Positions 20,686 through 36,747 of a DNA stretch of 64,000 nt are shown here, piece after piece (the first letter of the stretch is position 1; every line of letters starts with the position of its first letter). The notes below the pieces were generated by a model that saw nothing but the letters and a program-made list of their open reading frames with translations, did not search any database and was not told the origin of the DNA. The position numbers were made by a program, and so were the translations under genes. This DNA comes from Actinoallomurus bryophytorum (GTDB lineage: Bacteria > Actinomycetota > Actinomycetes > Streptosporangiales > Streptosporangiaceae), in the NCBI RefSeq assembly GCF_006716425.1, contig NZ_VFOZ01000002.1:558001-622000 (forward strand). The letters run 5' to 3'.

Positions 20686-23661
20686 CTAGAACTCGCGTCC
20701 CAATTCGGCGAGGATTTCGCGAGCCTCGTCTCGTGCGGTTATAGCTGCCTCTTCGTTCCCTTTCGTCGCATGTGTGTCGGCGAGACAGCGAAGCGTCTCG
20801 GCGACGTCCAGCGACTCCTGAAGGTCGCGGAAGATCCGCAGAGACTCCTCCAGTTGCCCGGCGGCCGCGTCGGCGTCGCCGTCGGCGAGGAGCATCTCCC
20901 CCGCGAGCCGCAGCACATGCCCCTCACACGTGCGCCAGCCGACGTCGCGAAAAGTCGTCATCACCAGATCGAGCAGTGGCCGCGCCTCGTCGTGGCGTTT
21001 CTGCCGGACCAGGCACTCCCCCATCCGCATCTGCACCACGGCCTCGCTCAGCCGGTCACCGATCGCCCGGAACGTCGGCAGCGCCTGTTCGAGCAGCCGC
21101 AGCGCCTCGGCGTAACGACCCAGCTCGAGCTCAACGGTCGCCAGCCGCCGTAGCGCGTGCGCCTCGCCCATGGCGTTGCCCGCGCTCTGGTAGAGCCGGA
21201 GCATCTCCTCGAACCGCGCCCGCGCCGGCTCCGCACGTCCCTGGTCCAGGTCGCACAGGCCGAGGCCCTCGACGGCGTACGCCTCGGCGCGCCGGTCGCC
21301 CAGCTCACCGAACAGCCGCAGCGCCTCCGCCCACAGCGGCCTGGACGCCTCGGGGTCGCCGTTGATGCGCACCGTGCCCGCGACCCCGCAGAGCGCGCCG
21401 GCCCGGCCGTACCCGTCGCCGATGCGTTCGCACAGGGCACCTGCACGCTCGAAGTGCCGCCGCGCCTCGCCGAACTCGCTCTGCACGTAGAGCATCGCGC
21501 CCAGGTTGATCTCCGATGCGGCCTCCCCGCGCAGGTCGCCGGACTCGCGCGCGGCCGAGAGCGCGTCGTCGCAGCAGCGGCGCCACTCGACCACGTCCCC
21601 GCAGAACTCGAAGAACGGCAGGCTCGCGCTGGCGAGCTCCCAGCACAGCCCGGGAAGGCCGGCCGAGCGCGCCTGTCCGACCATGGCCGTGATGGCCGAG
21701 CGCTCGCTCTCGAACCAGCCGAGGGGGTCGCCCAGCAGGGCGTCCGCGGCCTCCTCGTCAAGTGGCCGGCGGGGCGCGTCGCCGGACAGCGGCGCGTAGT
21801 AGCAGTTGGGGAGCCGGCGTTCGGCCTCGTCGGCCAGGGCGAGCCAGGCCGAGAGCGCCCGGCTCAGCGCCGCCCTGCGCGCCTCCGGCGGCTCCTCGGC
21901 CACCGCGCGCTCGCGCGCGTACACGCGCAGCAGGTCGTGGAAGCGATAGCGCGGCTGGTCGGTCGCGTCACGGCCGGCGACCTCGAGCAGCCGGGCGTCG
22001 ACCAGCTCCTCGACCAGGTCCTCACCCTCCGGCATCGGCACGTCGACCAGTGCCGCGGCGGCCCACGCGGCGAAGTCGGTGACCTCGAGCAGCCCGAGCA
22101 GCCGGAACGCCCGCTGGGCGACGGCGGACAGGCCGCGATGGCCGAGCGCGAGGCTGCCGCGCACCTCCAGGTCGGCGTGGACCAGCTCGTCGAGGCGCCG
22201 GTGCTCGTCGGCGAGCCGCCGGGCGAGACGGTCGAGCGTCCAGTGCGGCCGCGCGGCGAGCCGCGCCGCCGCGATCCGCAGCGCCAGCGGCAGCCGGTCG
22301 CACAGAGCCGCGACGCGGTCGGCGGCCTCGGGCTCGGCGGTCACCCGCTCGGCCCCCGCGACCCGCGTCAGCAGCTCGGCCGCCTGCGCCGGCTCGAAGG
22401 CGTCCAGCTCGATGCGGGTGGCCCCGGCCAGTCCGGTGAGACGCCGCCGCGAGGTGACGATGACCGCGCACAGCGGGCTGCCGGGTAGTAGCGGCCGGAC
22501 CTGACTCTCGTCCGCCGCGTTGTCCAGCACGATGAGGGCACGCCTCGCGTCGAGGCGGGTGCGGTAGAGGTCGGCGCGCTCGTCCGGGTCGGCGGGAATG
22601 GCCGCCCCGTCGACGCCGAGCCGGCGCAGCAGCCGTCCGAGCACGCCCGACGGGTCCGCCGGGGTCGCCTCGGTGCCCCGCAGGTCGACGTACAGACGCC
22701 CGTCGGGGAACTCCCGCCGCAGCCGGTGGGCCACGTGCACGGCGAGCGTGGTCTTGCCGACACCGCCACGTCCGCTGATGGCGATGATCGGCACCGCGCC
22801 GTACGGCTCGGGCCGCCAGGTCAGCGCGCCGGCGATCTCGGCGACCTGTTTGACGCGGCCGGTGAAGTCGGCGATGTCGGGCGGCAGCGGCGACCGCCCG
22901 GCCGCGGGCACCGGCTCGGCGGCCGGGCCCGGCGAGGTGTCGTCGGCGAGGATCGACTGCTGGATCCGGCGCAGGTCGGGGCCGGGTTCGAGGCCGAGCT
23001 CGCCGACCATCGTGTCGCGCGCGTCGTGATAGGCGTCGAGGGCCTCCGAACGCCGGCCCGCACGGTGCAGCGCGCGCATCAGCTGGCCGCGGAAGCGCTC
23101 GCGCAGCGGATGCGCCGCGACCAGGGAGACCACCTCGGGGATGAGGTCGCCGGCACGGCCGAGGGCGAGATCGGCGTCGATCCGCTCCTCGATGGCCGTC
23201 AGCCGCCGCTCCTCCAGGCGCGCCGCCTCCGCGGCGAGGCCGGGCAGGCCGCCGAGCGCCGGCCCGCGCCACAGGGCGAGAGCGGTCCGCAGCTCCTCCG
23301 AGGCGCCTGCGGGGTCGAGACGGCGCGCCACGGCGATCCGGCGTTCGAACTCCAGCAGGTCGACCTGGCCGGTCCGCAGCACGTAGCCGGGAGGGACGGT
23401 CACGATGACGTCGCGCACCGGCTCTCCGCCGGGGTCGGCGACCCGCCAGGCGCGGCGAAGCGCGGACACGCACGCCTGGATCTGCGCGGTCGCGGTCGTC
23501 GGCGCGCGATCACCCCACACCGCCTCGATCAGACGGTCGACGCTCCGCACACGTCCGGGGTCGAGTGAGAGTGCGGCGAGTACGGCACGGGCGCGCGGAC
23601 CGAGGGGAACCGACGCTGCGCCGTCCCACAGCTCCACCGGACCCAAGAGCCTGACCTGCAT
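20686..23661 (-). CDS. SARP/AfsR-type transcriptional regulator (BTAD, NB-ARC, TPR)
   Basis: A 991-residue signalling regulator of the AfsR group. Domains in order: OmpR-like winged helix (about 1-92), bacterial transcriptional activation domain BTAD (about 97-240), NB-ARC ATPase with Walker A SGRGGVGKTTL near residue 295-303 and Walker B ALIVLDNA, then a C-terminal TPR superhelix (from about 650; repeats such as LGLCDLDQGRAEPARARFEE). Such proteins activate secondary-metabolite or developmental genes in actinomycetes, with activity gated by nucleotide and often by phosphorylation. No biosynthetic cluster is present in this window, so its targets are elsewhere or the adjacent deacetylase. The palindrome at 23800-23814 lies in its promoter region. 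Confidence 0.94.
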   Translation of the reverse strand: MQVRLLGPVELWDGAASVPLGPRARAVLAALSLDPGRVRSVDRLIEAVWGDRAPTTATAQIQACVSALRRAWRVADPGGEPVRDVIVTVPPGYVLRTGQVDLLEFERRIAVARRLDPAGASEELRTALALWRGPALGGLPGLAAEAARLEERRLTAIEERIDADLALGRAGDLIPEVVSLVAAHPLRERFRGQLMRALHRAGRRSEALDAYHDARDTMVGELGLEPGPDLRRIQQSILADDTSPGPAAEPVPAAGRSPLPPDIADFTGRVKQVAEIAGALTWRPEPYGAVPIIAISGRGGVGKTTLAVHVAHRLRREFPDGRLYVDLRGTEATPADPSGVLGRLLRRLGVDGAAIPADPDERADLYRTRLDARRALIVLDNAADESQVRPLLPGSPLCAVIVTSRRRLTGLAGATRIELDAFEPAQAAELLTRVAGAERVTAEPEAADRVAALCDRLPLALRIAAARLAARPHWTLDRLARRLADEHRRLDELVHADLEVRGSLALGHRGLSAVAQRAFRLLGLLEVTDFAAWAAAALVDVPMPEGEDLVEELVDARLLEVAGRDATDQPRYRFHDLLRVYARERAVAEEPPEARRAALSRALSAWLALADEAERRLPNCYYAPLSGDAPRRPLDEEAADALLGDPLGWFESERSAITAMVGQARSAGLPGLCWELASASLPFFEFCGDVVEWRRCCDDALSAARESGDLRGEAASEINLGAMLYVQSEFGEARRHFERAGALCERIGDGYGRAGALCGVAGTVRINGDPEASRPLWAEALRLFGELGDRRAEAYAVEGLGLCDLDQGRAEPARARFEEMLRLYQSAGNAMGEAHALRRLATVELELGRYAEALRLLEQALPTFRAIGDRLSEAVVQMRMGECLVRQKRHDEARPLLDLVMTTFRDVGWRTCEGHVLRLAGEMLLADGDADAAAGQLEESLRIFRDLQESLDVAETLRCLADTHATKGNEEAAITARDEAREILAELGREF

Positions 23662-27667: not shown

Positions 27668-28999
27668 TCAGACGCCCGGCAGCCTGCGCGGCGAGTCGCG
27701 CAGGTAGACCGCCCACGTCACGGCCGCGCAGAGCGTGTAGAACGCGATGAAGGCGGCATAGGCGCCGTCGCCCGACCCGTACGCGAGGAAGGACTGCCGG
27801 AAGGCCAGGTTGACCAGGACGCCACCGAGGGCGCCGATCGCGCCGGCGAGGCCGATCAGGGCCCCGGACAGCCTCCGGGCCTCCGCTTCCACCGGCGTCT
27901 TCGCGCGGAAGATCGCCGGGATCATCTTGTACGTCGAGCCGTTGCCGATCCCGCTGAGCACGAACAGCGCCACGAAGCCGGCGATGAACAGCGGCAGCGA
28001 GCCCCGTGCCGAGGCGAGCAGGACGACCGCGGCGCCGAGCGCCATCGCGACGAAGCCCGCGAACGTGATCCTGGCGCCGCCGAGCCGGTCGGCGGCCCAG
28101 CCGCCCACCGGGCGGACCAGCGAGCCCAGCAGCGGCCCGAGGAAGGTGAGGTAGGCGGCCTTCACCGGGGTGTCGAAGTCGGTGGCGAACTGCACCTGCA
28201 GCACCTGGCCGAAGGCGAAGCCGAAACCGATGAACGAGCCGAACGAGCCGACGTAGAGCAGCGAGACGATCCAGGTGTGCGCGTCCCCGGCCACGTCGCG
28301 CATGGCCCGCCGGTCGTTGCGGACGCCCGTGAGGTTGTCCATTCCGAACGCGGCGCCGAGGGCGGCCAGGACGATGAGCGGCACGTAGACGCCGGCCACC
28401 AGCCGCGGATGGCCGGCTCCCGCCAGGGCCAGGACGGCCAGGCCGACGAGCTGCACCGCGGCCACGCCCAGGTTCCCGCCGCCGGCGTTGACGCCCAGGG
28501 CCCAGCCCTTGAGGCGCTGCGGGAAGAAGGCGTTGATGTTCGCCATCGAGGAGGCGAAGTTGCCGCCGCCGACGCCCGCGACCGCGGAGATCGCCAGCAG
28601 GGTCCCGTAGGAGACGCCGGGTCTGATCAGGACGGCGGCGAGCAGGGCGGGGACGAGCAGCAGCGCCGCGCTGACCATGGTCCAGTTTCGGCCGCCGAAC
28701 CTGGCGACCGCGAAGGTGTACGGCAGCCGCAGCACCGCTCCGAGGGCCGTCGGAACGGTGGTGAGCACGAACTTGCCGGCCGGGTCGACGTGGTACTCCG
28801 GCCCGAGGAAGAGCACGAGCACCGACCACAGGCTCCAGACCGAAAACCCGATGTGCTCGGAGAAGATGGAGAAGACGAGGTTGCGCCGTGCGATCCCGGC
28901 GCCGGTCCCGGCCCAGAACTCCGGGTCGTCGGGTCGCCAGTCGGCGATCCACCGGCCGTCCGTGCCGGTGGCCGGTGGGCGTTGCTCAACGGTGGTCAT
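27668..28999 (-). CDS. narK: Nitrate/nitrite MFS transporter
   Basis: Imports nitrate (and/or exports nitrite) across the cytoplasmic membrane for assimilation. 443 residues with about 12 helices and the NarK nitrate signatures: GGGNFASSMANINAFFP with GWALGVNAGGGNLG in the first half and the second-half glycine-rich counterpart (GLAGAIGALGGVLVN). The ATG of MTTVEQRPP has no ribosome site (CCCCCTCC precedes it), so translation may be leaderless. It diverges from nasA; one degenerate copy of the shared 18-bp motif lies 45 bases upstream. Its job in the module is to feed the NasA/NirBD pathway. Confidence 0.92.
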   Translation of the reverse strand: MTTVEQRPPATGTDGRWIADWRPDDPEFWAGTGAGIARRNLVFSIFSEHIGFSVWSLWSVLVLFLGPEYHVDPAGKFVLTTVPTALGAVLRLPYTFAVARFGGRNWTMVSAALLLVPALLAAVLIRPGVSYGTLLAISAVAGVGGGNFASSMANINAFFPQRLKGWALGVNAGGGNLGVAAVQLVGLAVLALAGAGHPRLVAGVYVPLIVLAALGAAFGMDNLTGVRNDRRAMRDVAGDAHTWIVSLLYVGSFGSFIGFGFAFGQVLQVQFATDFDTPVKAAYLTFLGPLLGSLVRPVGGWAADRLGGARITFAGFVAMALGAAVVLLASARGSLPLFIAGFVALFVLSGIGNGSTYKMIPAIFRAKTPVEAEARRLSGALIGLAGAIGALGGVLVNLAFRQSFLAYGSGDGAYAAFIAFYTLCAAVTWAVYLRDSPRRLPGV

Positions 29000-29044
29000 G
29001 GAGGGGGACGGTAGGAAGCTGCCGTTTCCCGGCCGTGTGCCGCG

Positions 29045-29062
29045 TGATTCGGCGGCGATACG
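29045..29062. promoter_or_regulatory. Nitrate-module motif, copy 1 (narK promoter)
   Basis: TGATTCGGCGGCGATACG matches each of the other two copies at 14 of 18 positions. It lies 45 bases upstream of narK. The inner pattern GATTC-n6-GATAC keeps the five-six-five spacing of GlnR-type sites. Confidence 0.5.
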
Positions 29063-29140
29063 TTCCGCGCACCCGGCGGAGACACGCGTTGTGAGCGCAC
29101 CGCTGGGCCGCGCCTCCGGTGAGCCGCTTGTTGCCGCCGG

Positions 29141-29168
29141 GTAATACACGGGACTCAGCGGCGAAACG
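29141..29168. promoter_or_regulatory. Nitrate-module motif, copy 2 (nasA promoter), with extra upstream half
   Basis: GTAAT-n6-GACTC-n6-GAAAC; the core is GGACTCAGCGGCGAAACG at 29151-29168. It ends 21 bases before the nasA ATG, so the transcript start must be very close to the start codon if this is a normal activator site. Spacing agrees with the actinobacterial GlnR pattern gTnAC-n6-GaAAC, though the GACTC half is unusual. Confidence 0.6.
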
Positions 29169-29189
29169 TCCCGGCCGCACGATCGGCGC

Positions 29190-31283
29190 ATGCCGCCGAC
29201 ACCCACGCACTGCCCGTACTGCGCGCTGCAGTGTGGCATGTTCGTCGACGCCGAGGCGATGATCACGCCACGCGAGGACGTCCCGGCCAACGCCGGCGGG
29301 GCGCTGTGCCAGAAGGGCTGGACCGCCGGGGAGCTGCTGTCGGCCCCGGACCGGGTGACGGCACCGCTGATGCGGGCGCACCGCGACGCCCCGTTCGAAC
29401 GGGTCTCGTGGGAGGCCGCGCTGGACCGGATCACCGCCGAGGTGGGACGGGTCCAGGACAGGCACGGCCGCGACGCCGTCGCGGTCTTCGGCGGGGGCGG
29501 GCTCACCAACGAGAAGGCCTACCAGCTCGGTAAGTTCGCGCGGGTCGCGCTGCGCACCGCCAACATCGACTACAACGGCCGGTTCTGCATGTCCTCCGCC
29601 GCGGCGGCGCAGAACCGTGCGTTCGGCCTGGACCGCGGCCTGCCGGTGCCGGTCACCGACGTTCCGGAGGCCGGCGCGATCCTCCTGGCCGGGGGCAACG
29701 TCGCCGAGACGATGCCGCCGTTCGTACGGCATCTGGCCGCCCAGCGGGAGCGGGGCGGGCGGCTCATCGTGGTGGACCCTCGGGAGACCCCTACGGCGCG
29801 GCTCGCCGACCTGCATCTGCAGCTCACGCCGGGCACCGACCTGGCGCTGGCGAACGGGCTGCTGCACCTGGCGATGACCGAGGGGCTGATCGACGAGGCG
29901 TACCTCGCCCGGCGCGTGTCGGGCCTCGAGGCGGTCCGTACGGTGGTCAACGCGTACTGGCCGGAGCGGGTCGAGCGGATCACCGGCGTGCCGGTGCCCC
30001 GGTTGCGCGAGGCCGTCCGGCTGCTCGGCACCGCCGCCCGCGCCCTCATCCTCACCGCGCGCGGCGCCGAACAGCACGCCACCGGCACCGACACGGTCAC
30101 CGCGTTCGTCAACCTGGCCCTCGGGCTGGGACTGCCCGGCCGGCCCGGCTCCGGCTTCGGCTGCCTCACCGGCCAGGGAAACGGGCAGGGCGGCCGCGAG
30201 CACGGCCAGAAGGCCGACCAGCTGCCCGGATACCGCAGGATCGACGACCCGGCGGCGCGGCGGCACGTCGCCCGTGTGTGGGGCGTCCGCCCGGAGGACC
30301 TGCCCGGCCCGGGGCTGTCCGCGGCCGAGCTGCTCGGCGCACTGGGCACCGAGGACGGGCCGCGTGCCCTGCTGGTCTTCGGCTCCAACCCGGTGGTGTC
30401 CGCGCCGGACTCGGCGCGCGTCGAGAAGCGCCTGGACGCGCTGGAGTTCCTCGCGGTCGCCGACTTCGTGCCGTCGGAGACCGCGATGCGCGCCGACGTG
30501 GTGCTGCCGACCGCCCAGTGGGCCGAGGAGACCGGCACGGTCACGAACCTGGAGGGCCGGGTGCTGCTGCGCCGCGCGGCCCGTCCCAGGCCGGCCGGGG
30601 TCCGCGACGACCTGGAGATCATCGCCGCGCTGGCGGAGCGGCTGAAGGCCCCTGGCCGGTTCAGCACCGAGCCGTCGGAGGTGTTCGAGGAGCTGCGCGC
30701 GGCCAGCGCGGGCGGCATCGCCGACTACTCCGGCATCACCTACGAGCGAATCGTCGCCGAGACCGGGGTGTTCTGGCCCTGTCCGGGCGAGGGACACCCG
30801 GGTACGCCTCGCGTCTTCCTCGACAGATTCGCCACGCCCGACGGCCGCGCCCGTATGGTGCCGGTCGAACACCGGGGCCCGGTCGAGCGGCCCTGCGCGG
30901 ACTATCCGCTGCACCTCACCACGGGACGCGTGCTCGCGCACTACCAGAGCGGGGCGCAGACCCGGCGCGTCCGCGCGCTGGTCGATGCCGTGCCGGAGGC
31001 CTTCGTCGAGCTCCATCCCGACCTGGCCGGGCGGCTCGGCGTCGACGACGGCGCGACCGTCCGGGTCACCAGCCGGCGGGGAAGCGCGGTCGCCAAGGTC
31101 CGGGTCTGCGCCACGATCCGGCGCGACACCGTCTTCATGCCCTTCCACTGGGCCGGCGCCGCACGCGCCAACCTGCTGACCAATCCCGCGCTCGATCCGA
31201 TCTCACGGATGCCGGAGTTCAAGGTGTGCGCCGTACGCGTGGACGCCGTGGACCAGGACAGAGGAACGGGGAGCCGGGGATGA
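29190..31283 (+). CDS. nasA: Assimilatory nitrate reductase catalytic subunit
   Basis: Reduces nitrate to nitrite in the cytoplasm using a bis-MGD molybdenum cofactor and one [4Fe-4S] cluster. The cluster ligands are CPYCALQC with a fourth Cys in ALCQKG near residue 40. The molybdopterin domains follow, including NIDYNGRFCMSSAAAAQ (the Mo-ligand Cys region), LTGQGNGQGGREHGQKADQ and the C-terminal dinucleotide-binding fold LHLTTGRVLAHYQSG. 697 residues, normal for NasA/NasC without the C-terminal Fe-S extension. Its TGA overlaps the flavoprotein ATG (ATGA). Under GlnR/NnaR control by analogy with streptomycetes. Confidence 0.95.
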   Translation: MPPTPTHCPYCALQCGMFVDAEAMITPREDVPANAGGALCQKGWTAGELLSAPDRVTAPLMRAHRDAPFERVSWEAALDRITAEVGRVQDRHGRDAVAVFGGGGLTNEKAYQLGKFARVALRTANIDYNGRFCMSSAAAAQNRAFGLDRGLPVPVTDVPEAGAILLAGGNVAETMPPFVRHLAAQRERGGRLIVVDPRETPTARLADLHLQLTPGTDLALANGLLHLAMTEGLIDEAYLARRVSGLEAVRTVVNAYWPERVERITGVPVPRLREAVRLLGTAARALILTARGAEQHATGTDTVTAFVNLALGLGLPGRPGSGFGCLTGQGNGQGGREHGQKADQLPGYRRIDDPAARRHVARVWGVRPEDLPGPGLSAAELLGALGTEDGPRALLVFGSNPVVSAPDSARVEKRLDALEFLAVADFVPSETAMRADVVLPTAQWAEETGTVTNLEGRVLLRRAARPRPAGVRDDLEIIAALAERLKAPGRFSTEPSEVFEELRAASAGGIADYSGITYERIVAETGVFWPCPGEGHPGTPRVFLDRFATPDGRARMVPVEHRGPVERPCADYPLHLTTGRVLAHYQSGAQTRRVRALVDAVPEAFVELHPDLAGRLGVDDGATVRVTSRRGSAVAKVRVCATIRRDTVFMPFHWAGAARANLLTNPALDPISRMPEFKVCAVRVDAVDQDRGTGSRG

Positions 31284-32728
31284 GAACGGTGATCGTGGGC
31301 AACGGCATGGCCGGCTCACGGCTGGTCGGTGAGCTGAGAAGCCGGGACCGGCGGATGCCGATCACCGTCTTCGGCGCGGAGAAGGCCAGGCCCTACAACC
31401 GCGTGATGCTCTCGAACGTCCTGGCCGGGGCGTCGGCGCCCGGCGACATCCACCTCACCGATCCCGGGTGGTACGCCGACAACGACGTCGACGCGCGGCT
31501 CGGCCTGCCGATCACCCGGATCGACCGGCGGGAGCGGACCGTCACGTCGGCCGACGGCGACGTCACGCCCTACGACGCGCTGGTGCTGGCCACCGGGAGC
31601 ACGCCGGTCGTGCCCCCGCTGCCCGGACTGGACGCCGAGGGTGTCGTCGTGTTCCGCACCCTCGAGGACTGCCGGGCCATCGTCCGGCACGCCGAGAGCG
31701 CGCGGTCCGCGGTCGTCGTGGGCGGCGGGCTGCTCGGCCTGGAGGCCGCGCGCGGGCTGGCCGGGCGGGGCGTACCGGTGACCGTCGTCCACCGGGCCGG
31801 GCATCTGATGGACCGGCAATTGGACCCCGAGGCCGGCGGCGTCCTGCGCCGCACGCTCCACGACCTGGGCGTCCGCACTCTCCTGAACGCCCGCCTGAGC
31901 GCCGCGCGCGCCGAGGTCGGCCGCGTGAGCGGCGTGGAGCTCGACGACGGCACGGTCCTGGCGGCCGATCTGGTCGTGCTCGCCTGTGGTGTCAGGCCGG
32001 AGACCGGCCTGGCCACGGCCTCCGGCCTGACCGTGGACCGCGGTGTCCTGGTCGACGACCGGCTGCGGTCCGTCGACGACCCCGGCGTCCACGCGATCGG
32101 CGAGTGCGCCCAGCACCAGGGCACGGTGTACGGGCTGGTCGCGCCGGCGTGGGAGCAGGCACGGGTGGTCGCCGACGTCCTGACCGGCCGTACCGCGCGC
32201 TATCGGGGATCCCGGCTGGTCACGCGGCTCAAGGCGACCGGGATCGAGCTGGCCGCGATGGGCGAGACGGGCCTGGGCGACGACGAGGCCGAGGTCGTCC
32301 GCTTCACCGACCCCACGCGCGGCACGTACAAGAAGATCGTGATCAGGGACGGTCTGCTGGTCGGTGCGATCCTGCTCGGCGAGACCGGTACGGCCGGGCT
32401 GCTCACCCAGCTGTACGACCGTGCGGAGCCGCTGCCCGCCGACCGGCTGCACCTGCTGTTCGACGGCCTGGGCACGGGCACCCCGGTGGACACGCCGGTA
32501 CGGATCCCGGACACGGCGACCGTCTGCCGGTGCAACAACGTCACCAAGGGACGTATCCGGGCGAGCTGGGAGGCCGGTGCGCGCGACGTGCCGGGCGTCG
32601 CGGCCGAGACCAGGGCCACCACCGGCTGCGGCGGCTGCCGGGACACCGTGGTGGGAATCCTGGAGTGGCTGGACCGCCAGGACCCGGGCCCTCACCACGA
32701 GCCGGGGGCGGAGGTGAGCCGGTTGTAG
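31280..32728 (+). CDS. nasB: Nitrate reductase electron-transfer flavoprotein (NasB-like), FAD/NAD(P) plus BFD domain
   Basis: Carries electrons from NAD(P)H to NasA. Pyridine-nucleotide oxidoreductase fold: FAD motif VIVGNGMAGSRLVGEL at the N-terminus, NAD motif VVVGGGLLGLEAARGL, and a second FAD segment in HAIGECAQ. A BFD-type [2Fe-2S] domain closes the protein (CRCNNVTKGRI ... TTGCGGC). 482 residues, equal to the N-terminal half of NirB, so it probably arose by duplication of it. Start ATG overlaps the nasA stop by four bases. The symbol follows the Klebsiella/Bacillus usage for this role and is tentative. Confidence 0.85.
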   Translation: MRTVIVGNGMAGSRLVGELRSRDRRMPITVFGAEKARPYNRVMLSNVLAGASAPGDIHLTDPGWYADNDVDARLGLPITRIDRRERTVTSADGDVTPYDALVLATGSTPVVPPLPGLDAEGVVVFRTLEDCRAIVRHAESARSAVVVGGGLLGLEAARGLAGRGVPVTVVHRAGHLMDRQLDPEAGGVLRRTLHDLGVRTLLNARLSAARAEVGRVSGVELDDGTVLAADLVVLACGVRPETGLATASGLTVDRGVLVDDRLRSVDDPGVHAIGECAQHQGTVYGLVAPAWEQARVVADVLTGRTARYRGSRLVTRLKATGIELAAMGETGLGDDEAEVVRFTDPTRGTYKKIVIRDGLLVGAILLGETGTAGLLTQLYDRAEPLPADRLHLLFDGLGTGTPVDTPVRIPDTATVCRCNNVTKGRIRASWEAGARDVPGVAAETRATTGCGGCRDTVVGILEWLDRQDPGPHHEPGAEVSRL

Positions 32729-32735
32729 CACGGCG

Positions 32736-32763
32736 GCAACGGCGCGGACTCGGCGGTGAAACG
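32736..32763. promoter_or_regulatory. Nitrate-module motif, copy 3 (nirB promoter)
   Basis: GCAAC-n6-GACTC-n6-GAAAC, with core GGACTCGGCGGTGAAACG at 32746-32763, 16 of 18 identical to the nasA copy. It sits in the 91-bp gap between the NasB-like gene and nirB, 56 bases before the nirB ATG, showing that nirB has its own promoter in addition to read-through. Confidence 0.6.
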
Positions 32764-32819
32764 CCTCCTCGCCAGGCTCGATGTCACGATCCCATGCCAC
32801 GTCAAGGAGGGTCCAGCGA

Positions 32820-35276
32820 ATGTCCGGCCATCTCGTCGTCACAGGACACGGCCCCGCGGCGCATCGCCTGGTCGAGGCGGTGCGCGCACGGGACACCGGC
32901 GGCCGCTGGCGGGTCACCGTCGTCGGAGAGGAACCCCGGCCCGCGTACGACCGGGTCGCGCTGACGTCCTACCTCACCGACGGCGCGGACCTCGCCTATC
33001 CCCCGCACGACGAGGCCGTGACGTTGCGGACCGGCGACCGGGTGACCGCGATCGACCGCGCGGCACGTACGGTCACGACCGAGGCGGGCACGGCCCTCCG
33101 CTACGACGCCCTGGTCCTGGCCACCGGATCGGTCCCCTTCGTGCCACCGGTCCGGGGTGCCGACACCGCGTTCGTCTACCGGACGATCGACGACCTCGAC
33201 GCGGTACGCGCGCACGTGCCCCCCGGCGGCCGCTCCACGGGAGTGGTCGTGGGCGGTGGCCTCCTGGGTCTGGAGGCGGCGCGTGCCCTGCAGGGACTCG
33301 GCGTCGAGACGCACATCGTCGAGGTGGCTCCGTGGCTCATGTCCCGCCAGCTCGACGAGGGCGGCGGGGCGATGCTGCGCCGCCACATCGAGGCGCTCGG
33401 CCTGCACGTGCACACCGGCACGGTCCTGGAGGGCATCGAGCCGGGGGCGGTCCACCTCGCCGGCGGCGCCGTCCTGGCCGCCGGCGTGGTCGTGTTCTCG
33501 GCCGGTATCCGGCCGCGCGACGAGCTCGCCCGCGCCGCGGGGCTGACGGTCGGCGCGCGCGGGGGCATCGTCGTGGACTCCTCCTGCCGCACCGAGGACC
33601 CGGACATCTTCGCGATCGGTGAGTGCGCGCTGGTGGACGGGCAGGTCTACGGGCTGGTCGGCCCGTGCTTCACCATGGCCGAGGTGGTCGCGGACCGCCT
33701 GCTCGGCGGGGAGTCGGAGTTCAACGGCGCCGACCTGTCCACCCGGCTCAAGCTCATGGACGTCGACGTCGCGAGCTTCGGCGACCCGAACGCGGACGCG
33801 CTGAACGTGAGCTACACCGACCCGGTCGCCGGAACGTACAAGCGGCTCGTCGTCAGCGACGACGCGAAGACCCTCCTAGGCGGTGTCCTCGTCGGCGACG
33901 CCTCCGCGTACCCCACTCTGCGCGCCTCCGTCGGAACGGAACTGCCCGCACCGCCTGAACAGCTCCTGTTCGGCGGCACCGAGCCGGCCGGCGGCCCGCT
34001 GCCCGAGTCGACGATGGTCTGTAGCTGCAACAACGTCAGCGCCGGCGCCATCCGGTCCGCGATCGGCGACGGAGGCCTCACCGACGTGCCCGCCGTGAAG
34101 GCGTGCACCAGGGCGGGCACCGGCTGCGGAAGCTGCGTCCCGCTGGTGAAGAGGCTGCTCGACGAGGAGCTCACCGCCGCGGGGGTCGAGGTGAGCACGG
34201 CGCTGTGCGAGCACTTCGACCACGGCCGCGCCGAGCTGTTCGACATCGTCCGGGTGCGGGGCATCACGACGTTCAGCCGGCTGATCTCCGAGCACGGCAG
34301 GGGCCGCGGCTGCGACATCTGCCGGCCGGTCGTCGCGTCGATCCTGGCCAGCCTCGGCAACGGTCACATCCTCGACGGGGAGCAGGGCAGCCTCCAGGAC
34401 ACCAACGACCAGTTCCTCGCCAACCTGCAGAAGAACGGCACCTACTCCGTGGTGCCGCGCGTGCCCGGCGGCGAGATCTCCCCCGACAAGCTCATCGTCA
34501 TCGGCGAGGTCGCACGCGACTTCGGCCTCTACACCAAGATCACTGGTGCGCAGCGGATCGACATGCTCGGGGCCCGCGTCGAGCAGCTGCCACGGATCTG
34601 GAAGCGGCTGAGCGACGCCGGGTTCGAGTCCGGGCACGCGTACGGCAAGGCACTGCGCACGGTGAAGTCGTGCGTCGGCTCCACCTGGTGCCGGTACGGG
34701 GTGCAGGACTCGGTCGGCATGGCGATCCGCCTCGAATTGCGCTACCGGGGCCTGCGCGCCCCCCACAAGATCAAGTCGGCGGTCTCCGGGTGTGCGCGCG
34801 AGTGCGCCGAGGCGCAGAGCAAGGACTTCGGCGTCATCGCGACCGAGAACGGCTGGAACCTCTACCTCGGCGGGAACGGCGGGATGCGGCCGCGGCACGC
34901 GGACCTGTTCGCCACCGACCTCGACGAGGACTCCCTGATCCGCAGCGTCGACCGGTTCCTGATGTTCTACATCCGCACCGCCGACCGGCTGCAGCGCACC
35001 GCGTCCTGGCTGGAGGGCCTCGACGGCGGGATCGAGTACCTGCGCGAGGTCATCGTGGCCGACCGGCTCGGCATCTGCGCCGAGCTGGACGCCGCCATGG
35101 CCCGGCACGTCGAGGACTACACCGACGAATGGCGCGCGACGCTGGAGGACCCGGACCGGCTCCGCCGCTTCGTCTCGTTCGTCAACGCCCCGGGGACGCC
35201 CGACCCCAGCATCGCCTTCGAGCCCGAGCGCGACCAGATCAAGCCCGTCCTACCGGAGGTAGTGATCATGCCGTGA
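32820..35276 (+). CDS. nirB: NAD(P)H nitrite reductase large subunit
   Basis: Six-electron reduction of nitrite to ammonium in the cytoplasm. 818 residues: FAD/NAD oxidoreductase (1-400; VVVGGGLLGLEAARAL), BFD [2Fe-2S] domain (CSCNNVSAGAI, CTRAGTGCGSC), a second Fe-S-like region (GRGCDICRP), then ferredoxin-like and sirohaem/[4Fe-4S] domains with the four ligands in CVGSTWC and SGCAREC. Start ATG with AAGGAGG nine bases upstream. The stop overlaps the nirD start (GTGA). Sirohaem supply is not encoded here except for a HemD-like regulator. Confidence 0.96.
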   Translation: MSGHLVVTGHGPAAHRLVEAVRARDTGGRWRVTVVGEEPRPAYDRVALTSYLTDGADLAYPPHDEAVTLRTGDRVTAIDRAARTVTTEAGTALRYDALVLATGSVPFVPPVRGADTAFVYRTIDDLDAVRAHVPPGGRSTGVVVGGGLLGLEAARALQGLGVETHIVEVAPWLMSRQLDEGGGAMLRRHIEALGLHVHTGTVLEGIEPGAVHLAGGAVLAAGVVVFSAGIRPRDELARAAGLTVGARGGIVVDSSCRTEDPDIFAIGECALVDGQVYGLVGPCFTMAEVVADRLLGGESEFNGADLSTRLKLMDVDVASFGDPNADALNVSYTDPVAGTYKRLVVSDDAKTLLGGVLVGDASAYPTLRASVGTELPAPPEQLLFGGTEPAGGPLPESTMVCSCNNVSAGAIRSAIGDGGLTDVPAVKACTRAGTGCGSCVPLVKRLLDEELTAAGVEVSTALCEHFDHGRAELFDIVRVRGITTFSRLISEHGRGRGCDICRPVVASILASLGNGHILDGEQGSLQDTNDQFLANLQKNGTYSVVPRVPGGEISPDKLIVIGEVARDFGLYTKITGAQRIDMLGARVEQLPRIWKRLSDAGFESGHAYGKALRTVKSCVGSTWCRYGVQDSVGMAIRLELRYRGLRAPHKIKSAVSGCARECAEAQSKDFGVIATENGWNLYLGGNGGMRPRHADLFATDLDEDSLIRSVDRFLMFYIRTADRLQRTASWLEGLDGGIEYLREVIVADRLGICAELDAAMARHVEDYTDEWRATLEDPDRLRRFVSFVNAPGTPDPSIAFEPERDQIKPVLPEVVIMP

Positions 35277-35599
35277 CACGTTGGCTCGTGGTGTGCGACT
35301 ACGACGACCTGCCGCCCGAGCGCGGCACGTGCGCGCTCGTCGAAGGGGACCAGATCGCGCTGTTCCGTACGCACGACGGGCGGGTCCACGCACTCTCCAA
35401 CCGTGACCCGTTCAGCGGCGCGTACGTCCTCGCACGTGGCATCGTCGGCTCCCGGCGGGGTCTGCCCACGGTGGCCTCTCCCATGTACAAACAGGTCTTC
35501 GACCTGACCACGGGCCACTGCCTGGACGACCCCGCGGTCCGCGTGCCGACGTTCGGTGTACGCCTCAGCGGCTCCCGTGTGGAGGTGGGCCGGCCGTGA
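35273..35599 (+). CDS. nirD: Nitrite reductase small subunit (Rieske-like)
   Basis: Small subunit of the NADH-dependent nitrite reductase, 108 residues, with a Rieske-like fold. As expected for NirD the Rieske Cys/His ligands are absent: the positions are NRDPFSGAYVLARG and PMYKQVFDLTTGHC. The GTG start overlaps the nirB stop and the stop overlaps the nnaR start (both GTGA), so NirB, NirD and the regulator are translationally linked. NirD is needed for normal nitrite reductase activity in related bacteria; the structural reason is not clear. Confidence 0.93.
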   Translation: MTRWLVVCDYDDLPPERGTCALVEGDQIALFRTHDGRVHALSNRDPFSGAYVLARGIVGSRRGLPTVASPMYKQVFDLTTGHCLDDPAVRVPTFGVRLSGSRVEVGRP

Positions 35600-36747
35600 G
35601 CGAAGAGCCGCTGGCCGGTTTCACCGTGGGCGTGACGGCGGCCCGCCGGCATGAGGAGCTCTCGGCGCTGCTCGAACGCCGGGGTGCGCGGGTGGTCTGC
35701 GCGCCCGCGATCCGGCTCGTGCCGCTCACCGACGACGCCGTGCTCCTCGCGGCCACCCGCGAGATGCTCGCCAGACCCGTCGACGCCGTCGTCGTCACCA
35801 CCGCCATCGGCCTTCGCGCGTGGCTGGAGACCGCCGACGGCTGGGGGCTCCGCGACGACCTGATCAAGAGCCTCGGTGACGTGCGCGTCCTCACCCGCGG
35901 CCCGAAGGCGCGCGGGGCCGTACGCGCGGCCGGGCTGACCGAGGCGTGGTCGCCGGAGTCCGAGAGCTGCGAGGAGGTCCTGCGCCACCTCCTGGAGGAG
36001 GACCTCACCGGTCGCAGGATCGCCGTGCAGCTCTACGGTGAGCCTGCTCCGGAGCTGACCGATGGGCTCCGGCGTGCGGGGGCCGAGGTGCTGGAGATCC
36101 CGGTGTACCAGTGGGCGCGGACCGAGGACACCGAGCCGCTGCGGCGCCTCGTCGGGCAGGCCGTGGCCGGGACGCTGGACGCGATCACCTTCACCAGTGC
36201 GCCGGCCGTCGCGGCGACGCTGTCCACGGCCGCGGAGCACGACGCCGAGGAACCCCTGCTCGACGCTCTGCGCACCCGGGTGGTCGCCGCGTGCGTCGGG
36301 CCGGTGACCGCGGCCGGGCTGGAGCGCAGGGACGTGCCGACCGTACGCCCGGACCGGGCACGGATCGGCGCGCTCGTCCGCGCGCTCGCCGCCGACCTGC
36401 CCGCACGCCGGGCCGGCCGGATCGTCGTCCAGGGCCACACTCTGGAGATTCGCGGGCACGGCGTGATGCTCGACGGCCGGCTACGGCCGATCGCCCGCGC
36501 GCCCATGGCGATCCTGCGGGCACTGGCGGTCCGGCCCGGCCACGTCGTGTCCCGGACCGAACTCCGCGGTGCGCTGCCCGGCGGATCCCCTTCCGCCGGT
36601 CCGTTCACGGCGCGTCCGCAGCCCGACGAGCACGCCGTGGAGATGGCGGTGGCGCGGCTGCGGCGCGGCCTCGGCCACCAGTACCTCGTCGAGACGGTGG
36701 TCAAGCGCGGTTACCGGCTCGCCTGCGCCCTCCCGGCGGCGCGGTGA
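35596..36747 (+). CDS. nnaR: HemD-like / winged-helix regulator of nitrate assimilation
   Basis: Two-domain protein (383 residues): uroporphyrinogen-III synthase fold at about 8-265 ([44 protein letters not shown]), followed by an OmpR-type winged helix at about 285-378 ([33 protein letters not shown]). This is the architecture of NnaR of Streptomyces, a co-activator of nitrate/nitrite assimilation genes with GlnR. It is last in the nas/nir operon, with a GTGA overlap with nirD, which supports that role. Whether the HemD half is still catalytic or only senses a tetrapyrrole cannot be judged here. Confidence 0.9.

Follow-up and report, generated by a model that had tools for sequence, protein, structure and literature searches.

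Candidate composite NnaR-GlnR promoters of the nitrate-assimilation genes narK, nasA and nirB in Actinoallomurus bryophytorum

The closest described counterparts of the promoters analyzed here are those controlled by NnaR and GlnR in Streptomyces coelicolor, Mycobacterium smegmatis and Mycobacterium abscessus; the parts of the literature on which this account draws come from PMC6277429, PMC11162112, PMC10704036, PMC3087709 and PMC1906773. For M. smegmatis, Antczak et al. (2018) give the palindrome ctCAC[ac]-N16-[tg]GTGag as the motif of NnaR; it occurs close to a GlnR motif, the spacing between the two being similar in most targets and the transcripts having leaderless features. A related NnaR motif, based on S. 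coelicolor and Mycobacterium tuberculosis, is quoted in PMC11162112, and a review mentions that cooperative binding of NnaR and GlnR was reported at S. coelicolor nirB. The present study concerns a 64,000-nucleotide stretch of A. bryophytorum DNA (contig NZ_VFOZ01000002.1, positions 558,001 to 622,000; hereafter the window), in which an initial annotation had noted three copies of an 18-bp motif, at 29151, 32746 and 29045, and had assigned them to the genes nasA, nirB and narK. Our analysis indicates that this 18-mer is very probably the proximal GlnR box of a composite promoter activated by NnaR and GlnR, which occurs three times, ahead of narK, nasA and nirB-nirD-nnaR. The promoter type is already known; what is added is a new instance with a tight spacing rule.

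The locus resembles the published NnaR/GlnR promoters, as far as the consulted descriptions go, in its targets (narK, nasA, nirB), in the presence of a palindrome and a nearby GlnR motif at similar spacing and, probably so at nasA, in leaderless features. In M. abscessus the NnaR sites are located 63 and 66 bp ahead of the annotated start positions, and the authors doubt one of these starts (PMC11162112); here the distance from the NnaR-type palindrome to the start codon is 68 for narK, 66 for nasA and 101 for nirB. Unlike in those descriptions, nasA and nirB belong to one cluster with narK divergent from it, the palindromes of narK and nasA lie directly against each other, and a leader precedes nirB. 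A likeness of another kind is found with the PhoB boxes of Escherichia coli, described as tandem repeats of an OmpR-family activator that end 10 bp before the -10 element; these differ in half-site and signal, and the PhoB description consulted includes no second, palindromic regulator.

Anatomy of the narK, nasA and nirB promoters

All three promoters share one order of elements: an upstream palindrome (CTCACM-N16-KGTGAG), overlooked in the initial annotation, four half-sites at 11-bp pitch arranged so that GTG-N41-GAAAC links the palindrome to the last of them, and, after N10, a putative -10 element. The general pattern of the latter is YANNNT. Scanning the window for CAC-N18-GTG-N38..44-GAAAC gave three matches, all at N41 and directed at narK, nasA and nirB. 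The elements, in window coordinates, are the following.

29096–29123, plus strand: nasA NnaR-type palindrome CGCACC-N16-GGTGAG, one mismatch to the published motif
29130–29167, plus strand: nasA GlnR-type ladder GTTGC, GTAAT, GACTC, GAAAC, read from the sequence at 11-bp pitch
29178–29183, plus strand: nasA putative -10 CACGAT, 10 bp after GAAAC and 6 nt before the ATG at 29190
29068–29095, minus strand: narK NnaR-type palindrome CTCACA-N16-GGTGCG (minus-strand letters), matching the motif with one mismatch
29024–29061, minus strand: narK GlnR-type ladder GTATC, GAATC, CACAC, GAAAC, read from the sequence at 11-bp pitch
29008–29013, minus strand: narK putative -10 TACCGT, 10 bp after GAAAC and 8 nt before the ATG at 28999
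32691–32718, plus strand: nirB NnaR-type palindrome CTCACC-N16-GGTGAG, no mismatch to the published motif
32725–32762, plus strand: nirB GlnR-type ladder GTAGC, GCAAC, GACTC, GAAAC, read from the sequence at 11-bp pitch
32773–32778, plus strand: nirB putative -10 CAGGCT, 10 bp after GAAAC
32804–32811, plus strand: Shine-Dalgarno-like AAGGAGGG, preceding the nirB ATG at 32820

Each ladder consists of 5-bp half-sites with 6-bp spacers; the last half-site is GAAAC in every case and the remaining rungs are degenerate with respect to the GlnR consensus, GACTC being an example. The inner half of the palindrome lies one pitch unit ahead of the first half-site, and the palindrome ends 27 bp before the 18-mer. 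These three palindromes are also the ones found in the window at zero or one mismatch to the published motif, and each is most likely the NnaR part of a joint site. The nirB palindrome overlaps the 3' end of the preceding gene. Those of narK and nasA abut without a gap (29068–29123); in three relatives (L150, L151 and L148) about 1, 11 and 17 bp separate them. GGGACT, considered by eye as a -35 element, was dropped, as it would leave a spacer of 22 nt to the -10. In the consensus of relatives' narK promoters, TTCC is kept directly 5' of TAnnnT, a feature not seen in the nasA or nirB consensus.

On re-reading of the sequence the three reported 18-mers proved correct in letters and coordinates, as did their identities (16/18 between 29151–29168 and 32746–32763, 14/18 between 29045–29062 and either of these) and the five-base elements GTAAT, GCAAC and GTGTG, each located six bases 5' of its 18-mer. 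Their assignment holds for two of them. The nasA and nirB copies form the last two rungs of the respective ladders and, on sequence grounds, are promoter-proximal GlnR-type boxes. The gene narK is read leftwards, and the copy at 29045 is the reverse complement of its distal pair GTATC/GAATC; it resembles the other two because the 11-bp pitch is identical on both strands. As a narK box it was discarded, strand and register being wrong. On the narK strand, bases 29061–29024 read GTATC-n6-GAATC-n6-CACAC-n6-GAAAC, and the true proximal box is CACAC-n6-GAAAC (minus strand, 29039–29024); this box, GCACACGGCCGGGAAACG, matches those of nasA, nirB and glnA at 13/18, 14/18 and 16/18 positions, respectively.

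The sequence GGACTCRGCGGYGAAACG, with at most three mismatches, occurs four times in the window against 0.66 expected, a number reached by none of 100 shuffles; the fourth match, at 33294, falls within the nirB coding region. A 17-mer core modelled on these copies matches the 9.47-Mb genome exactly at these copies only, with five matches at one mismatch and one in the reversed control, a test that is circular in that the pattern derives from the copies themselves. The full composite, CACM-N16-KGTG-N41-GAAAC-N10-YANNNT, likewise has three exact matches in the genome, those of narK, nasA and nirB; with up to two mismatches there are 20, made up of the three exact matches and 17 that carry two mismatches, none carrying one, compared with seven for the reversed control. 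In neither scan does the motif occur elsewhere in the genome at random frequency, the outcome that would have refuted the reading of the initial annotation.

The glutamine synthetase gene provided a control for the identity of the box. A sequence-only model, R1, was built from 24 promoters drawn from 46 candidate rows, and the window's three promoters match it by construction, being among the training rows. It has five matches in the genome: narK (54.8 bits), nirB (50.3), nasA (48.7), C3:197349 (38.9) and C1:244817 (33.1). The last of these directly precedes glnA, identified through the Pfam domain Gln-synt, whose promoter GTAAC/GAAAC/GACAC/GAAAC-N10-TAGCGT has the same ladder and -10 spacing as the nitrate promoters: it is a GlnR promoter of the a-b-a-b type, with four half-sites at 11-bp pitch, of which the last, GAAAC, is separated from the -10 by 10 bp. 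The glnA box is 14/18 identical to the nirB box. Unlike the nitrate promoters, glnA is nearer the GlnR consensus and shows no NnaR palindrome, the palindrome score being 4 of 10 at distance 44 and 6 at best nearby; the glnA genes of three relatives score 4–6 at this distance and 6–7 at best, whereas nasA, nirB and narK score 9, 10 and 9. Because glnA shares ladder and -10 spacing without the palindrome, the 18-mer is read as a GlnR box and not as an NnaR-specific one: by sequence its class is GlnR's, and it is the palindrome that sets the nitrate promoters apart. The same comparison led us to reject the 18-mer as an NnaR site, and to reject R1 as an NnaR-specific detector, since its matches include glnA promoters (own, L211, L213 and L214). 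R1 matches were found in 121 of 150 family genomes (E ≤ 0.001); of the 150, 113 carry nnaR and 115 nasA. The upstream region of the organism's own amtB contains one TTCAC-n6-GAAAC pair.

The -10 element of leaderless genes ends 6–8 nt before the start codon. The initial annotation had observed that the nasA copy ends 21 bases from the ATG at 29190, which is correct, and had seen in this a hint of a leaderless transcript or a very short leader. Among 45 nasA promoters of relatives picked by the composite (score of at least 7, distance 43–45, gap 9–11), 42 have a -10 whose end lies 6–8 nt upstream of the first start codon in frame, and here the distance is 6 nt; the nasA transcript is for this reason probably leaderless. 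For narK a leaderless transcript or a very short leader is plausible from the 8 nt that separate its -10 from the start codon, a distance for which relatives show values between a few nt and some 30 or more. The hint does not extend to nirB, with 41 nt and the Shine-Dalgarno-like sequence listed above.

Spacing of the elements in related genomes

The composite recurs upstream of narK, nasA and nirB in genomes of both the family and the class. In 150 family genomes it has 12 exact matches distributed over nine genomes (reversed control, none), 11 of them upstream of one of the three genes. Across 394 genomes of the class a looser form (GNAAC) was matched 51 times, in 45 of the genomes, with six matches in the control; 30 of the 51 loci were examined, a count to which the window's own three and 18 further loci do not belong, and 25 of these lie upstream of narK, nasA or nirB homologues. 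Eighteen family regions were fetched and scanned over spacings of 38–44 and 9–11; the composite is present in 16, the best in each being at N41 and N10, and was not found within this range in the two others (L149 and L153). Loss of the composite in most relatives, a pattern bearing on the possibility of chance similarity, is not seen; the opposite is observed.

Upstream regions of 108 nasA, 62 narK and 55 nirB genes (78, 48 and 41 of the regions, respectively, from public genomes, the remainder from family genomes) were then compared, after exclusion of tblastn hits starting after residue 40, nirB hits below 50% identity, regions with less than 150 nt upstream and identical duplicates. For each gene the most frequent GTG-to-GAAAC distance is 44, shared by 32 nasA, 14 narK and 13 nirB regions, where the mean number of regions per distance is 2.10, 0.76 and 0.74. 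When the looser pair GTGA and G[ACT]AA[CT] is used instead, the nasA maximum is again at 44. A wide scan (distance 28–60, gap to the -10 of 4–16, palindrome gap 10–22, score out of 10) peaks at distance 44 with a gap of 10, with weights of 37.0, 21.8 and 4.0 for nasA, narK and nirB. Among regions scoring at least 8 the gap to the -10 is 10 in 65.0 of 66 (nasA), 38.0 of 40 (narK) and 4.0 of 5 (nirB). In dinucleotide-preserving shuffles this score is reached by 14 of 540 nasA, 5 of 310 narK and 4 of 275 nirB regions, none at distance 44 with gap 10.

A second class is formed by nasA regions with distance 53 (18 regions) or 54 (two regions), from Streptosporangium, Microbispora, Planotetraspora, Acrocarpospora and further family genomes, in which the palindrome lies 9–10 bp further out, a shift of about one helical turn. 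Two Nocardioides narK regions are also at distance 53, without a clear left half of the palindrome. Spacing of the N41/N10 type recurs in relatives from Actinomadura, Micromonospora and Streptomyces. In the Streptomyces nasA promoters CTCAC, the 10-bp gap and GTAAC-type sequences in rungs two and four are retained; the third rung is degenerate, as is the inner half of the palindrome, which reads CTGAG or GGGAG instead of GTGAG. An unusual GlnR site at S. coelicolor nasA, with two GTAAC copies 18 bp apart, is quoted in PMC3087709; in the Streptomyces nasA promoters compared here the GTAAC-type copies are two rungs apart with 17 nt between them, versus the 18 quoted, and the ladder may be this site.

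Proposed switch and alternative readings

What the sequence shows are the palindromes, ladders and spacings, their restriction to these genes within the genome and their conservation; the assignment of proteins to elements, their cooperation on the DNA, the role of the -10 and the places where transcription starts are inferred. NnaR would bind the palindrome further upstream, the inner half of which (GTG[AC]G) keeps the register of the ladder, and would help GlnR to fill four half-sites of 11-bp pitch of which several are off the GlnR consensus, most likely by stabilizing GlnR on the weak rungs. GlnR on the last half-site, GAAAC, would probably take the place of a -35 element and recruit RNA polymerase, because this half-site is placed like the PhoB boxes of E. 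coli, which lie 10 bp before the -10, and GlnR is of the same protein family. Transcription would begin at or next to the start codon at nasA, nearly so at narK, and after a short leader at nirB. The switch is found in many actinobacteria, where NnaR and GlnR most likely sit side by side to activate nitrate-assimilation genes.

Several observations weigh against this reading. The looser pair GTGA to G[ACT]AA[CT] has its maximum at 45 for narK and at 22 for nirB, where 44 comes second. Wide-scan scores of at least 8 are attained by just 66 of 108 nasA, 40 of 62 narK and 5 of 55 nirB regions, a shortfall that is partly due to nirB frequently lacking a separate promoter; among these, distance 53 accounts for 15.5 of 66 in nasA and 45 for 7.5 of 40 in narK. 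The sequences compared share ancestry and their counts are not independent. One of the 12 family matches (genome G090) and five of the 30 examined class loci are at other genes. Taken alone, the palindrome with up to two mismatches occurs no more often in the window than expected (8 versus 9.9), and as evidence in its own right it was dropped. The GACTC rung differs from the GlnR consensus gTnAC, and the M. smegmatis msmeg_5360 promoter is described as carrying the motif, yet NnaR alone gave no shift there.

The initial annotation had taken the 18-mer for a joint or NnaR-specific site. Joint control fits, with nnaR in the operon and GlnR encoded in the genome. That the 18-mer is itself NnaR-specific, or a hybrid NnaR/GlnR pair of half-sites, is improbable: its recurrence at three nitrate promoters and the non-consensus GACTC would agree with it, but glnA, which has no palindrome, shows a box of this type equally far from its -10, and the published NnaR motif is the palindrome, which is present upstream. 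A little less probable again is the possibility that another OmpR-family regulator, MtrA or PhoP, chiefly binds the ladder, for example as an ammonium repressor, with GlnR secondary. Antczak et al. give near-identical motifs for GlnR and MtrA and report MtrA binding at mycobacterial nirB, but a ladder that stands with the NnaR palindrome at nitrate genes is what the sources consulted describe for GlnR and NnaR, and competition would supplement GlnR control, not replace it. Chance similarity or an effect of base composition could be suspected from the shortness and degeneracy of the motifs and from the third copy, whose likeness was a coincidence of register; set against the 100 shuffles, the three exact composites at three genes and the lack of any shuffle at distance 44 with gap 10, it is hardly credible.

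Beyond the preferred reading of an NnaR-GlnR activated promoter, we put forward tentatively, as an idea that falls somewhat short of probable, that actinobacterial nitrate promoters follow one rigid plan. An NnaR half-site would add a fifth rung to the 11-bp GlnR ladder, 44 bp ahead of the final GlnR half-site, so that the rungs would all face the same side of the helix. In some lineages it would be displaced by roughly one helical turn, and the place of the polymerase would always be 10 bp further downstream. The two regulators would be in direct contact, and NnaR would license weak ladders only in the presence of nitrate or nitrite. The base-exact N41/N10 rule was not found in the portions of the NnaR/GlnR descriptions consulted, a scope outside which the original S. 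coelicolor papers lie, and we do not claim it to be unpublished. It turns a loosely described motif pair into a base-exact promoter rule usable for annotating actinobacterial nitrate regulons, offers a reading of the unusual Streptomyces nasA site, and makes the NnaR-GlnR contact testable through altered spacing between palindrome and ladder.

Regulator genes and neighboring features

The genes of the locus, assigned from Pfam domains, are the following.

27668–28999, minus strand: narK, major-facilitator transporter (MFS_1; the name narK from the initial annotation and the gene order of homologues)
29190–31283, plus strand: nasA, molybdopterin nitrate reductase
31280–32728, plus strand: FAD/NAD(P) oxidoreductase with BFD domain, between nasA and nirB
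32820–35276, plus strand: nirB, nitrite reductase large subunit
35276–35599, plus strand: nirD, Rieske-type small subunit
35596–36747, plus strand: nnaR, HemD-like domain and OmpR-type DNA-binding domain (HEM4 and Trans_reg_C)

The HEM4 and Trans_reg_C domains bear out the earlier placement of nnaR at the end of the operon. The GlnR gene lies at C1:1968980-1969717, upstream of mshD; its product has the Pfam domains GlnR_1st and Trans_reg_C and matches the PDB entries 8hih, 8hig, 8hml, 4o1i and 4o1h, the last of which is named GlnR. Both regulators, NnaR and GlnR, are accordingly encoded in the organism's own genome.

A second nnaR (L207:8850-10348; C3:197349 onward in the genome), with HEM4 and Trans_reg_C domains and 74% identity to the window copy, has no adjoining nirB or nirD. 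Ahead of it lie a nirB-like promoter, which keeps the intact inner half GTGAG and a GlnR ladder and lacks the left half of the palindrome, and a short reading frame of some 70 codons that might be a remnant. The congener G135 likewise has a second nnaR, with an R1 match upstream (C5:121977). In another genome, G037, the composite (C7:207303-207374; L210:3804-3875) stands ahead of a nirD-like gene that precedes a separate nnaR, an arrangement which suggests that nnaR is there under its own control. The window also encodes, at 20686–23661 on the minus strand, an AfsR-like regulator with Trans_reg_C, BTAD, NB-ARC and TPR domains.

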